Source: Acidobacteriaceae bacterium (GTDB lineage: Bacteria > Acidobacteriota > Terriglobia > Terriglobales > Acidobacteriaceae). From it: 64,000 nucleotides of DNA. The stretch is taken from positions 16,386 to 80,385 of the forward strand of contig JASHQH010000038.1 of NCBI GenBank assembly GCA_030037635.1. The letters are read 5' to 3'. A program made the translations under genes and the position numbers. Of the stretch, positions 4,815 through 43,477 are shown piece after piece; position 1 is the stretch's first letter; each line of letters opens with the position of its first letter. Under the pieces are notes generated by a model. The model did not search any database. It had not been told where the DNA came from and saw nothing but the letters and a program-made list of their open reading frames with translations.

Positions 4815-5192
4815 GTGGTTTGCGCTTCTAACCCGATAATGGCGAAGCGCACGCAGAGCTGGGTGAAAGTGAACGCGCAAGTGGATCGCGGCGTGGTGGC
4901 TCTGATCGAGGCTCTGAACGCGGTCCCGGGGTTGCGCACCATGGAAAGCTGCGAAACCGACGGAGATGAGGCGTGGGTGTGCTTCGATGCAGGCGCAGCG
5001 AGCTGGAACCAGTTGGGGGAGATTGTTTTTGGCTGGCTCGGCCCCAAGCTCATTGACGCCTTCGGCAACCAGGTGCACATTGAAATGAAATTGACCAATG
5101 GAATTGTGATTGCGGAGATGACCGTGCACAAGTCAGTGATTGCCGTGGTCAGCCGAGCCATCCGGCAGCTGGCTGCCAGCCGCAATGGTTGA
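4815..5192 (+). CDS. Conserved hypothetical protein, copy 1 of a local paralogous pair
   Basis: WVKVNAQVDRGVVALIEALNAVPGLRTMESCETDGDEAWVCFDAG; closely matches ORF 5838..6248. The ATG at 4839 (MAKRTQ) is an alternative start. Confidence 0.75.
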   Translation: MVCASNPIMAKRTQSWVKVNAQVDRGVVALIEALNAVPGLRTMESCETDGDEAWVCFDAGAASWNQLGEIVFGWLGPKLIDAFGNQVHIEMKLTNGIVIAEMTVHKSVIAVVSRAIRQLAASRNG

Positions 5193-5246: not shown

Positions 5247-5633
5247 TCAAGCGCCGTTTTCCATCAATCTGGCTGCCATGTCGAGCAGTTCCGTAGGAGG
5301 AATGGGCTTGGCGAGCACTTGCAGCATCTGACCCTGTGCTTCAGCTTCTTTCACCAGATCGGCCGTGCTGGGCTGGCCGGAAAAAAGCAAGAGCCTGCAT
5401 CCGGGAAGATTGGCCTTCAGAACGCCGGCGAGGTCGATTCCATTCATCCCCGGCAAAATGATGTCAAGAATTGCCAGGTCGGGCTTCCATTGGGTGGTAA
5501 TTTCGATCGCCTCTTCGGCCGAATACGCAACCCGAGTCTCCCATCCCTGCGTCGTAAACAAAAGGGCCACCGTTTTCGAGACTTTTTCATCGTCGTCGAC
5601 GATGAGCACTCGATAGTGGGTAAGCGCGGGCAT
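5247..5633 (-). CDS. Single-domain response regulator (CheY-like receiver)
   Basis: HYRVLIVDDDEKVSKTVALLFTTQGWE...PDLAILDIILPGMNGIDL...LLFSGQ...VLAKPIPP. Confidence 0.9.
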   Translation of the reverse strand: MPALTHYRVLIVDDDEKVSKTVALLFTTQGWETRVAYSAEEAIEITTQWKPDLAILDIILPGMNGIDLAGVLKANLPGCRLLLFSGQPSTADLVKEAEAQGQMLQVLAKPIPPTELLDMAARLMENGA

Positions 5634-5837: not shown

Positions 5838-6248
5838 TTGCTGAACGCCATAGGGGCAGCGGCGAAGCAACTTTGTGCTTCTAACCCGATGATGACCGTG
5901 CATCGCCAAGCCTGGGTGAAAGTGAACGCACAAGTGGATCGCGGCGTGGTGCCTTTGATCGAAGCGCTGAATGCGATTCCCGAGTTGCGCACCCTGGAAA
6001 GCTGCGAAACCGATGGGGATGTGGCTTGGGTCTGCTTCGATGCGGGCACGCAGAACTGGCGCAAACTCGCAGAGATTGTCTTTGACTGGCTTGGCCCCAA
6101 GCTGATGGACGCTTTCGGGAACGCGGTTCATCTGGAAATGACCCTGGTGAATGGGATCGTCATGGCGGAAATGACGGTAAACAAGTCGGTCATGTCCGCA
6201 ATGAGTCAAGCCATCCGCAACCTGGCTTTGCATGCCAAGGCTGCGTGA
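5838..6248 (+). CDS. Conserved hypothetical protein, copy 2 of a local paralogous pair
   Basis: WVKVNAQVDRGVVPLIEALNAIPELRTLESCETDGDVAWVCFDAG; homologous over its full length to 4815..5192. ATG at 5889 (MMTVHRQ) is the equivalent start. Confidence 0.75.
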   Translation: MLNAIGAAAKQLCASNPMMTVHRQAWVKVNAQVDRGVVPLIEALNAIPELRTLESCETDGDVAWVCFDAGTQNWRKLAEIVFDWLGPKLMDAFGNAVHLEMTLVNGIVMAEMTVNKSVMSAMSQAIRNLALHAKAA

Positions 6249-6261
6249 GAAACTGAGCCAC

Positions 6262-6316
6262 CCTTCCCTTGTCCCCTGCTCTTCTGTTCCCCGTTGCCTG
6301 TTGCCTGTTCCCTGCT
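6262..6316 (-). repeat. Heptamer G-tract array at stop of fumarase
   Basis: Minus strand: TAA-AGCAGGGAACAGGCAACAGGCAACGGGGAACAGAAGAGCAGGGGACAAGGG. Confidence 0.85.
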
Positions 6317-8269: not shown

Positions 8270-8860
8270 TCACGGCAAACCCGGGGTTGGTGCGCTTTGT
8301 TGAGCGCCCCGAAGGCCGCTGCTGCGCGATGCTCCTGCCGCAACGGCTTCGGCTTCGGGATACGGTAACTCCGATTTTTGCGAGAGCCGCTGGCGCAGGC
8401 TGCCGGCCAGATCGGCCACCACCCGCAGCCGGTCGGCCACCGGCGGCGGAACCCCGCCGCCGCTGAGCGCCAGTTGCGATTGCAGCAGCAGTCCGGCCAC
8501 CGTGGTCTTCAATTCGGTTTCAATGGCGGCCGCAGCCGCCCGGTGGGCCAGCATCTGCTCACGTTCGCGGCGATGCAGCGCGGCGCGAAGCTCGCGCACC
8601 AGGCGGGCCGCGCCGGAGACGGCGAAGTTGATTTGCAGGGGAATGGCCAGGCCGGCCTGCTCGCAGATTTTCTCGGCCGCCGCCGGGTCGCATTCAGCCA
8701 GAGACTCGTCGACCACCACGGCAAGATACTCGCATTTGCGCAGCGCGGCCAGCGCAGCCTTGCGGCCTTCGGCCACCTCCACGTCCATGCCCAGCTGGGC
8801 GCCCACCGACGCCGCACAATTGCGCGCGCCTTCAATACCGGTCACCATCAGGATGCTCAT
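8270..8860 (-). CDS. Hypothetical protein with degenerate receiver-like N-terminus and helical region
   Basis: MSILMVTGIEGARNCAASVGAQLGMDVEVAEGRKAALAALRKCEYLAVVVDESL resembles a REC fold. Lies downstream of the NtrC/HK pair on the same strand. Confidence 0.65.
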   Translation of the reverse strand: MSILMVTGIEGARNCAASVGAQLGMDVEVAEGRKAALAALRKCEYLAVVVDESLAECDPAAAEKICEQAGLAIPLQINFAVSGAARLVRELRAALHRREREQMLAHRAAAAAIETELKTTVAGLLLQSQLALSGGGVPPPVADRLRVVADLAGSLRQRLSQKSELPYPEAEAVAAGASRSSGLRGAQQSAPTPGLP

Positions 8861-9059: not shown

Positions 9060-10517
<1,458 letters not shown>

Positions 10518-10583: not shown

Positions 10584-11720
10584 TCAGTGGTCAGCTTCCC
10601 GCCGGGAACCGGTAGCCTGTATCTCGCAGCTCAATGGCCGCACAGCACTGCGCTGCCTTTTTCCCTTGTTCCCTGGTGCCCTGTTTTTCTGTTCCCGGTT
10701 GACTGCATCTCTCACCGGGACCTTGATTTCGAAGCATGCACCGCCGGCTTGGCGATTGCGCGCGGTGATGTGTCCGCCCGCGGCTTCGACGATGGAACGG
10801 GTGATGGCGAGCCCCAACCCGCGATGGAGGGAGGGCCAATGGCAGGTGCCCCGCTCCTCTTTGCCCCGGGTGGTGTAGCCGGAAGCGAAGACCGCCTGCA
10901 GCGCCTGGTTGGCGATTCCCGGCCCGTTGTCCTCGACCGTCAGCACGACGCACCCGGCAGAATCGCCCGGCACGGGCGGCTCGCTCAGAGTGATGTGAAT
11001 GCGCCCGCCTGCGGGCATGGCCTCGGCCGCGTTCTTCACCAGATTGACCAGCACGCGGGTCAGATCCTCGCCTGTGATGCGCACGGGCACAGCTCCGCCG
11101 CTGGTGTCCACGGTCAGCGCGATCGACGGGCCGGCGAGCGCGGAGAGCAGGTTGCGGTTGGCCAGCAGTTCCGCGGCCAGATTATCGACCGGAGTGGGGG
11201 GCAGCAGATCGAGTTGCCGGTGAAGCTGCTGGTCAAAACGCCGGCCGGAACGCGCGTCCGGTTGCCGCTGCGCCGATGCGTCCACCGGCCCGGTTCCGGC
11301 AGCAAAGGTCGCAGCCAAGGGGTCAATCAATCTGGCTTGCGTGCCGAGATTCGCATCGAGATTCGCATCAAGATTCGTGTCAAGATTCGGGTCGAGATTC
11401 GCATCAAGATTCGTGTCAAGATTCGTGTCAAGCGCCACCAGCTTTTCAACCAGGCGGCGGCTGGCGGCAGCCACAAGGCGCAGCTCGCTCCCATAATGGG
11501 CGTAGGGAGCCGCAAGCACGCCGGGCTCATCGAGCAAATCGCAGTAAAGCCCCAGTGCCGTGACCATGTTGCGTGCATCGTGGGCCACTGCGGAGAGGTT
11601 TTCTTCCGGGCTGCGCAAGGTGGCCAGCGTCTCTACCACTTTCTCTACCCGTGCGCGCTCCTCGCCCGCCTTCTTTCCCCGCTCCCGGTTCGGATGTGCC
11701 ACCTGTCCCAGCTGCTGCAT
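10584..11720 (-). CDS. Sensor histidine kinase (soluble, HDxRN-type) partner of the NtrC regulator
   Basis: AVAHDARNMVTALGLYCDLL, LVNLVKNAAEAMPAGG, VEDNGPGI, GLGLAITRSIVEAAGG. Immediately upstream of the NtrC gene. Confidence 0.9.
   Translation of the reverse strand: MQQLGQVAHPNRERGKKAGEERARVEKVVETLATLRSPEENLSAVAHDARNMVTALGLYCDLLDEPGVLAAPYAHYGSELRLVAAASRRLVEKLVALDTNLDTNLDANLDPNLDTNLDANLDANLGTQARLIDPLAATFAAGTGPVDASAQRQPDARSGRRFDQQLHRQLDLLPPTPVDNLAAELLANRNLLSALAGPSIALTVDTSGGAVPVRITGEDLTRVLVNLVKNAAEAMPAGGRIHITLSEPPVPGDSAGCVVLTVEDNGPGIANQALQAVFASGYTTRGKEERGTCHWPSLHRGLGLAITRSIVEAAGGHITARNRQAGGACFEIKVPVRDAVNREQKNRAPGNKGKRQRSAVRPLSCEIQATGSRREADH
11346..11429. repeat. In-frame 7 x 12-bp minisatellite within the histidine kinase CDS
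   Basis: gagattcgcatc x2, aagattcgtgtc, aagattcgggtc, gagattcgcatc, aagattcgtgtc x2; encodes (L-D-[TAP]-N)n on the minus strand. Confidence 0.97.
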
Positions 11721-12161
11721 GGCCGGATTCCTTTCCAGAGTCAGTTCTCAGTTCGCCGTGGTCAGCGATTCGCTGTGAGCGATTCGCGTTTGGCAGTTGA
11801 CTGCTGGCGGCTTTCTGTTCCCTGTTCCCTGTCCGCGGTGATCTGCCCCACTTCCCGTTTCTGTTTCCGGGGTGGTTGGTTGTCCTTTTTCTATACACGC
11901 CGCGTGCCAATGTTGAACGGAATGTCTAGGCTCTTGATAAGAGGAAGGATGATGATGCGCGCAGGGGTTTTCGCGGGCTGCATGGCGGCCCCGCGCGCTC
12001 CCATAATGGAACGGTGCGCGGTGCCGCTGGTTTTGAAATGGCGTTGATTCAATAAGCTAGGAGAATTTCCTGATGCGGCACGCGAAATCGCGGTTTTTCC
12101 CGAATTGGGTAGGAACCCGGCGCGCGGACACGGCGTGGGCGGGCTCCCTTAGAATCCCTTC

Positions 12162-12920
12162 ATGCATGCCAAACCAATTTCTCTTCGCCCCGGCGGCCGA
12201 ACAAGCGACCAGCTTCGTCCGCTGACTCTGACGCCCGGGTATGTGCAGACCGCCGAGGGCTCCGTCCTGGTCTCTTTGGGCAACACGCGCGTCCTGACCA
12301 ACGCCACCATTGAACAGGGTGTTCCCGGCTGGCTGCGCAATGCCGGCCGCGGCTGGGTTACCGCCGAATACGCCATGCTGCCCCGCTCCACGGTCACGCG
12401 CACTCCCCGCGAGAGCGAGCGCGGCAAGATCGGCGGCCGCACGCATGAGATCCAGAGACTGATCGGGCGGAGCCTGCGCTCGGTGGTAGACATGACCGCG
12501 CTCGGCGAACGCACCGTCATTCTGGACTGCGACGTGATTCAAGCGGACGGCGGCACGCGCACGGCGGCGATCACCGGCGCGGCGGTGGCCCTGGCTCTTG
12601 CCCTCGACGCCCTGGTGAAGGCGGGGACGCTGAAGGCATCGCCTCTCAAGCAGCTTGTGGCCGCCACCTCGGTGGGGATTGTGGACGGCACGGCGGTGCT
12701 CGATCTTTGCTACGAGGAGGACGCGCAGGCCGAGGTGGACATGAACGTGGTGATGACGGCCGAGGGAGGACTGGTGGAGACGCAGGCCACGGCGGAACGG
12801 GGAAGTTTTTCGCGGGCGCAGCTCAATGGGCTCATCGATCTGGCCGAAGGGGGGCTGAAGGAAATCTTTGCCGCGCAAAGAGCGGTGCTGGAAAAGCGGG
12901 AACAGAAAGACAGGGACTGA
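12162..12920 (+). CDS. rph: Ribonuclease PH
   Basis: [93 protein letters not shown]. Confidence 0.97.
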
Positions 12921-19831: not shown

Positions 19832-19896
19832 AAGCAGGGATTAGGGAACAGGGATTAGAAGACAGGGATCAGAGTTTCTGTTCCCTGTTCCCTGTT
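19832..19896. repeat. Convergent pair of heptamer G-tract arrays between the TonB-receptor and glycosyltransferase genes
   Basis: aaagcagggattagggaacagggattagaagacagggatcag (+), then ctgttccctgttccctgtta (the - sense copy). Confidence 0.85.
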
Positions 19897-25848: not shown

Positions 25849-25963
25849 AAGACAGGCCGGAGGATGGCGCAACCGCCGAACTTGGATGATTGCTTTCCCA
25901 GGTCTCAAAATCGAGACCTGGGGCGCCCTCTTTTCGAGGTGAGCTCTGTTCCCCTGTTCCCTG

Positions 25964-26003
25964 CCGGGGTCCCCAGCGGGCGATTTTTGCCTGCTGGGGT
26001 GGC
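25964..26003. repeat. Dispersed hairpin repeat (CCCCAGCGnGCGATTTnTGC(T/C)nGCTGGGGT)
   Basis: ccggggtccccagcgggcgatttttgcctgctggggtggc; related copies at 13631, 15237 and 52734. Confidence 0.75.
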
Positions 26004-26147
26004 CTGCTCCCTGTTTTACTCTCTGTTGCCTGTTGCCTGTTCCCTGCTTTTTTAAAGTGCGCTTCGTCACCGCGCCAGAGCAGAATTTCCCCGATTCTGT
26101 GGGAGATCTCCCATTGCCGGTTGACGAGGCAGAAAGCGAGGGCTGTT

Positions 26148-40562: not shown

Positions 40563-40608
40563 CCCTGCCTTCTGTTCCCTGTTGCCTGTTCCCTGCTGCC
40601 TGCTTTTA
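40563..40608 (-). repeat. Heptamer G-tract array at stop of the FecR-like gene
   Basis: Minus strand: TAA-AAGCAGGCAGCAGGGAACAGGCAACAGGGAACAGAAGGCAGGG. Confidence 0.85.
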
Positions 40609-43290: not shown

Positions 43291-43477
43291 AAAAAGCAGG
43301 GGATCAGGGATTAGGGAACAGGGAATAGAAGACCATAAAAAGCCATAGACATTGAGAACCATACATAGGAAATGCCTTTGATCGTGCGCTTGCCTGCTGT
43401 TCCAGCTAGGGGCGCACGCCGACCTGCAGTCTTTTATGCCTTGTGTCGCCTGTTCCCTAATCCCTGCTCCCTGCTTT
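43291..43477. repeat. Convergent heptamer G-tract arrays bounding the acylphosphatase / Ig-like gene intergenic region
   Basis: +: TGA-AAAAAGCAGGGGATCAGGGATTAGGGAACAGGGAATAG. -: TAA-AAGCAGGGAGCAGGGATTAGGGAACAGG. Confidence 0.88.

Follow-up and report, generated by a model that had tools for sequence, protein, structure and literature searches.

An in-frame 12-bp minisatellite in the hypervariable DHp-CA linker of an acidobacterial histidine kinase, probably the expansion of a passive tether

The 64,000-nucleotide stretch of Acidobacteriaceae DNA analysed here (the window) encodes a histidine kinase whose gene contains an in-frame array of seven 12-bp units, with a decayed eighth, between the DHp region and the ATP-binding (CA) domain (Table 1). 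The array is probably a species-specific expansion in a fast-evolving disordered tether, which would act as a passive spacer, with gain or loss of units near-neutral. An earlier note on this DNA had recognised the array and its setting, which Tandem Repeats Finder (TRF) and domain searches bear out, and had read it as a rheostat-like device. Both a rheostat and a tight geometric role of the linker are disfavoured.

The host is a soil bacterium of a Terracidiphilus-like genus of the Acidobacteriaceae, and its kinase is 62% identical over the matched stretch to the nearest orthologue found in a search of the genus. HATPase_c (PF02518, E 9e-22, residues 218-337) is the sole domain match; no sensor domain was recognised, and DHp begins near residue 20-40. 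His47 of the HDARN motif and the ATP-site residues N226, N230, D264, G266, G268, G301, and G303 are invariant in 24 aligned orthologues, and the N- and G-boxes are present. The best fold matches of the kinase model are histidine kinases. The AlphaFold2 model contains helices at residues 42-63 and 71-108 and a confident CA fold, while pLDDT is mostly below 50 across residues 112-170. Save for its long linker and lack of a sensor domain, the kinase is an orthodox DHp-CA protein. The linker of 80 residues lies outside the short-linker range (about 8-13), compared with 13 in LvrB and 8-9 in family outgroups.

Approximately 40 extra C-terminal residues of the kinase are read from intergenic-type sequence with CTGTTCC-type heptamer repeats; most orthologous frames end near residue 340. 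Across the window, CTGTTCCCTG is matched 35 times (1 mismatch allowed), where 3.7 matches would be expected; they lie on both strands, and many are apparently intergenic. Elsewhere, a stand-alone receiver protein (5247-5633, minus strand) is located between two similar frames (4815-5192 and 5838-6248, plus strand; 125 and 136 aa), which look like a duplicated small gene.

Table 1. Features of the kinase locus and associated repeats (positions in the window)
Feature	Position	Strand	Basis
Sensorless histidine kinase, 378 aa, HATPase_c	10584..11720	-	open frame, domain search, syntenic orthologues
DHp region, residues 21-96, phospho-acceptor His47 in HDARN	11433..11660	-	alignment, AlphaFold2
Hypervariable DHp-CA linker, 80 residues, holds the array; predicted mostly disordered	11193..11432	-	alignment, AlphaFold2
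Seven 12-bp units LDTN LDTN LDAN LDPN LDTN LDAN LDAN (read 11432 down to 11349)	11349..11432	-	TRF, codon shuffles
Degenerate eighth unit LGTQ	11337..11348	-	unit reading
CA (HATPase_c) domain, residues 177-337	10710..11192	-	domain search, alignment, fold comparison
Extra C-terminal tail of the kinase	10584..10709	-	orthologue frame comparison
NtrC-type sigma-54 activator, Asn74 replacing the receiver phosphoacceptor Asp	9060..10517	-	domain search, alignment
Asn74 codon (ADILLINLP), phosphoacceptor position	10296..10298	-	regulator alignment
Conserved third gene: receiver-like domain lacking the acidic pair and His-less DHp-like helical hairpin	8270..8860	-	alignment, structure comparison
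rph (RNase PH), divergently oriented neighbour at almost every orthologous locus	12162..12920	+	domain search, synteny
Heptamer repeat sites	1796, 2181, 6284-6314, 8217, 10666-10698, 11815-11831, 19842-19894, 25954-26046, 40572-40595, 43312-43473		

The first unit of the array follows immediately on the conserved DHp helix 2 (SRRLVEKLVALD), and HATPase_c lies beyond the array. TRF detects it at period 12 (7.2 copies, 86% match, 11347-11432, score 109) and at period 36 (2.5 copies, 90% match, 11340-11429, score 145). The seven units encode LDTN, LDAN, or LDPN, as the earlier note had it; its coordinates were 3 bases off, which is a choice of phase. On the coding strand, the order is CTTGACACGAAT twice, CTTGATGCGAAT, CTCGACCCGAAT, CTTGACACGAAT, CTTGATGCGAAT, and CTCGATGCGAAT, followed by the decayed CTCGGCACGCAA. 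All seven units keep L, D, and N, and only the T/A/P position varies; this invariance could mean selection on the motif, the changes being too few for a test. The two copies of a 36-bp duplication, units 2-4 and units 5-7, match perfectly over 34 bp (11392-11425 and 11356-11389); this duplication is the strongest slippage substrate in the array. In the 12-bp register, the array is imperfect and its longest perfect run is 17 bp. The LDxN array exceeds chance by far: the best TRF score in 2,000 codon shuffles of the window linker was 69, and none reached the observed value.

A search of the whole genome found the 98-bp array once, and its origin as a dispersed element was rejected on this ground; moreover, a two-unit pattern (3 mismatches) gave scattered single matches in the genus, besides this array and that of orthologue L020. 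As the genome is metagenome-derived, in 352 contigs and about 91% complete, an assembly or binning artefact could be suspected. However, at 84 bp the array is short; it keeps the frame, is single-copy, and sits well within an 80-kb contig, at a locus whose synteny extends to relatives. An artefact is extremely improbable.

Kinase orthologues (E 1e-25 or better) are present in 67 of 80 genus genomes, and the linker was measured from SRRLVEKL to the start of the CA domain in 62 genus orthologues. Its length varies from 22 to 140 residues (median 44.5). The linkers are unalignable, while mean identity to the window kinase is 74% in DHp and 60% in CA. With such conserved flanks around a variable linker, the enzyme seems tolerant of very different tether lengths, and the natural range itself suggests tolerance of length change. 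The linker had been supposed to set the geometry of the kinase; as orthologues with conserved DHp and CA span 22-140 residues and outgroups only 8-9, its length is not tightly set.

The LDxN array is absent from all 62 orthologous linkers of the genus. Other linkers contain arrays of their own, with unrelated 12- to 24-bp units that differ in period and place: 15-bp DRLDR in L005, 12/24-bp EANL in L020, 12-bp DRSP in L009, and 12-bp RNLD together with 15-bp GAGSV in L035; in a linker of the sister genus (L226), PRLD is repeated three times. TRF arrays scoring at least 50 occur in 6 of 63 linkers (10.2 kb) versus 1 of 63 DHp+CA sets (44.7 kb), and codon-shuffled linkers yield a mean of 0.23 such arrays and never more than one. 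The carriers belong mostly to separate clades, the sisters L020 and L035 being the exception. Common ancestry of the window array with the similar EANL and RNLD arrays of these sisters was rejected: they lie in a different clade and at a different place in the linker, and therefore originated independently.

The linker also evolves faster than both DHp and CA. In six close orthologue pairs, dN/dS amounts to 0.01-0.18 for DHp, 0.13-0.48 for CA, and 0.21-1.2 for the linker, which has the highest value in every pair. Some constraint on the linker is apparent from its sequence: dN/dS is only 0.2-0.4 in three of the six pairs, and many orthologue linkers end in a semi-conserved RRWDLxPAxPIxNLA segment. 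Linker length changes over species divergence, differing by 2-17 residues in pairs 84-92% identical (by none in one 84% pair). Identical linker lengths are found in the two closest pairs, L040/L164 and L163/L166, whose DHp+CA sequences agree at 97-98% of positions; all four linkers are repeat-free and so provide no test of the window array. Judged on these array-free pairs, there is no sign of hypermutability.

These data bear on the proposal that the array is a contingency locus, in which frequent copy-number change tunes kinase output. It is correct that a change in copy number would alter linker length and keep the frame, and the 34-bp perfect direct repeat, 36 bp apart, speaks for this reading, for which tolA (PMC3477136) and type IC HsdS (PMC10030836) are precedents. 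However, the array occurs in no orthologue, its units are imperfect, the closest (repeat-free) pairs are equal in linker length, and length is free over the whole observed range; besides, the regulator lacks a phospho-Asp. The probability of a contingency locus is low.

Expansion of a passive tether in a soluble kinase is the preferred reading. Relatives have LDTN (L002) and LDAN (L008) at the same point, so the array was probably seeded by an LDTN/LDxN tetrapeptide located where DHp helix 2 ends. The 12-bp copies would have arisen by short slippage, a later 36-bp duplication would have copied three units, and point changes would then have diversified them; this order of growth is inferred from the unit sequences and their succession. 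The frame would be retained because only multiples of three survive in a gene still under selection, and minisatellites arising in the tether would be tolerated because they preserve it. If the tether is disordered in the cell, as predicted, CA may remain able to contact His47 at widely differing tether lengths, and gain or loss of units should therefore have little effect on kinase activity. For LvrB, a DHp-CA linker of 13 residues is described as allowing the CA domain, once freed, to explore a large space (PMC13269768).

Alternatively, the LDxN repeats could be an adaptive structural element, which extends DHp helix 2 or provides a short binding motif for a partner (e.g., the product of the third gene). 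In the AlphaFold2 model, helix 2 extends as far as residue 108, within the first repeats, and might thus be made longer by the repeat; LDxN-like tetrapeptides are found in other linkers (RNLD, EANL, and PRLD). Yet pLDDT in this extension is low (about 54 falling to 45), most orthologues contain no such motif, and the recurring arrays occupy different places in the linker. An adaptive role of this kind is very improbable.

The order rph, kinase, NtrC-type regulator, and small REC-DHp-like protein, with rph divergent, is syntenic across Acidobacteriaceae. The downstream gene does encode a sigma-54 regulator, as the earlier note stated: it matches PF00158, PF25601, and PF02954, a GAFTGA loop is readable in its sequence, and the sigma-54 interaction and Fis-type HTH regions are present. 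Outgroup regulators have Asp (LLDLRLPG) where the window regulator has Asn74. Asparagine occupies this position in 68 of 79 rows of the genus alignment (some genomes have more than one row). Family-wide, the 119 deduplicated regulators comprise 48 with D, 65 with N, and 6 with another residue; H, S, G, or E also replace Asp in some regulators of the long-linker clade. The D-to-N shift maps near the base of the clade of Terracidiphilus and its sister genus, where a few species have D, H, or S. Aspartate-less receivers with Asn at this position are known, and deamidation may reverse the substitution (PMC4395418), so loss of phosphorylation of the regulator is likely but not proven.

The kinase is missing between rph and the regulator in 12 loci (L229, L230, L231, L233, L236, L239, L255, L256, L260, L265, L266, and L273), with a gap of 250-575 bp, which parsimony attributes to about seven losses. 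All 12 keep the regulator, with Glu at the phosphoacceptor in L230, and the third gene. The latter is present in 203 of 298 genomes searched of the order (58 of 70 genera). Its product has no Pfam match, weak top PDB matches (LvrB REC-DHp and GacS), and D (88 of 95) or E (7 of 95) at the Asp51 position. The kinase had been assumed to control the sigma-54 regulator; Asn74 and the repeated loss of the kinase in regulator-keeping lineages make this step doubtful.

The same observations would fit a decaying two-component system: once the regulator had lost its phospho-Asp, precise DHp-CA-regulator geometry would be unneeded, the linker would grow by relaxed constraint, and the array would mark drift. 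Almost every regulator of the long-linker clade has another residue in place of Asp, kinase losses recur on the tree, and the median linker is 19 residues with D regulators versus 49.5 with N regulators. The raw difference is strong (Mann-Whitney p about 1e-12), but both the D-to-N shift and the main lengthening map mostly to a single branch, and phylogenetic contrasts give p = 0.10. The correlation was therefore rejected as independent evidence and is reported as a coincidence mostly on one main branch, with no causal claim. Furthermore, some kinases paired with D regulators already have linkers of 31-51 residues, while the strong purifying selection on DHp, together with invariant His47 and ATP-site residues, indicates that the kinase is not a pseudogene. 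Decay is thus an unlikely, though credible, cause of the array.

On the scale of the family, it is possible, with considerable doubt, that a two-component system is giving up ordinary phosphorelay in favour of sigma-54 control independent of phosphorylation. Asp would have given way to Asn, the tether would have grown from 9 to up to 140 residues through repeated, independent minisatellite growth, and the kinase would have been dropped about seven times, with the receiver/His-less-DHp third protein kept. The array alone is ordinary, most likely plain spacer growth and not a tuning switch. The family, in turn, is a natural series, in which DHp and the ATPase domain are conserved, tethers measure between 8 and 140 residues, and the partner regulators in part lack the usual phosphorylation site. 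With this series, one can test directly how strongly a histidine kinase relies on its DHp-CA joint for function, and by what route the two members of a two-component pair separate during evolution. The lesson is that a linker should be compared across relatives before an in-frame minisatellite in a regulator gene is read as a tuning device.

A literature search with a limited range of terms found no in-frame repeats in histidine kinases; rocA of GAS was rejected as a precedent, its mononucleotide repeat truncating the protein. The mutL product and histidine kinases share the GHKL ATPase group. The repeat switch of Salmonella mutL (PMC2955026) is likewise an in-frame repeat, but its copy change turns a functional allele defective, whereas the kinase repeat sits outside the ATPase fold. 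RitR resembles the window regulator in having Asn, the second most frequent substitution in aspartate-less receivers, at the phosphoacceptor, and a DNA-binding output (PMC4395418); unlike RitR, the window regulator belongs to the NtrC-type sigma-54 activators, and the kinase still encoded next to it retains its His and ATP-site motifs.

Two defining features of contingency loci, a near-perfect tract and retention across relatives, are absent from the window array. In E. coli tolA, an in-frame coding repeat in a spacer also varies in length without change of frame; strains of this one species differ widely in repeat number, which tunes stress tolerance (PMC3477136), whereas the window array is known from one genome and is absent in other species. 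Type IC HsdS (EcoR124-type) shares the 12-bp, four-residue unit in a spacer between functional domains, with two or three TAEL-type repeats setting spacer length (PMC10030836). Those copy numbers correlate with DNA-recognition spacing, whereas the linker lengths of the orthologous kinases span more than 100 residues. The tandem repeats of Borg proteins are similar in being lineage-specific, in frame, and independent in origin and in creating disordered stretches (PMC9879509); they are pervasive and perfect, whereas the kinase array is isolated and imperfect.
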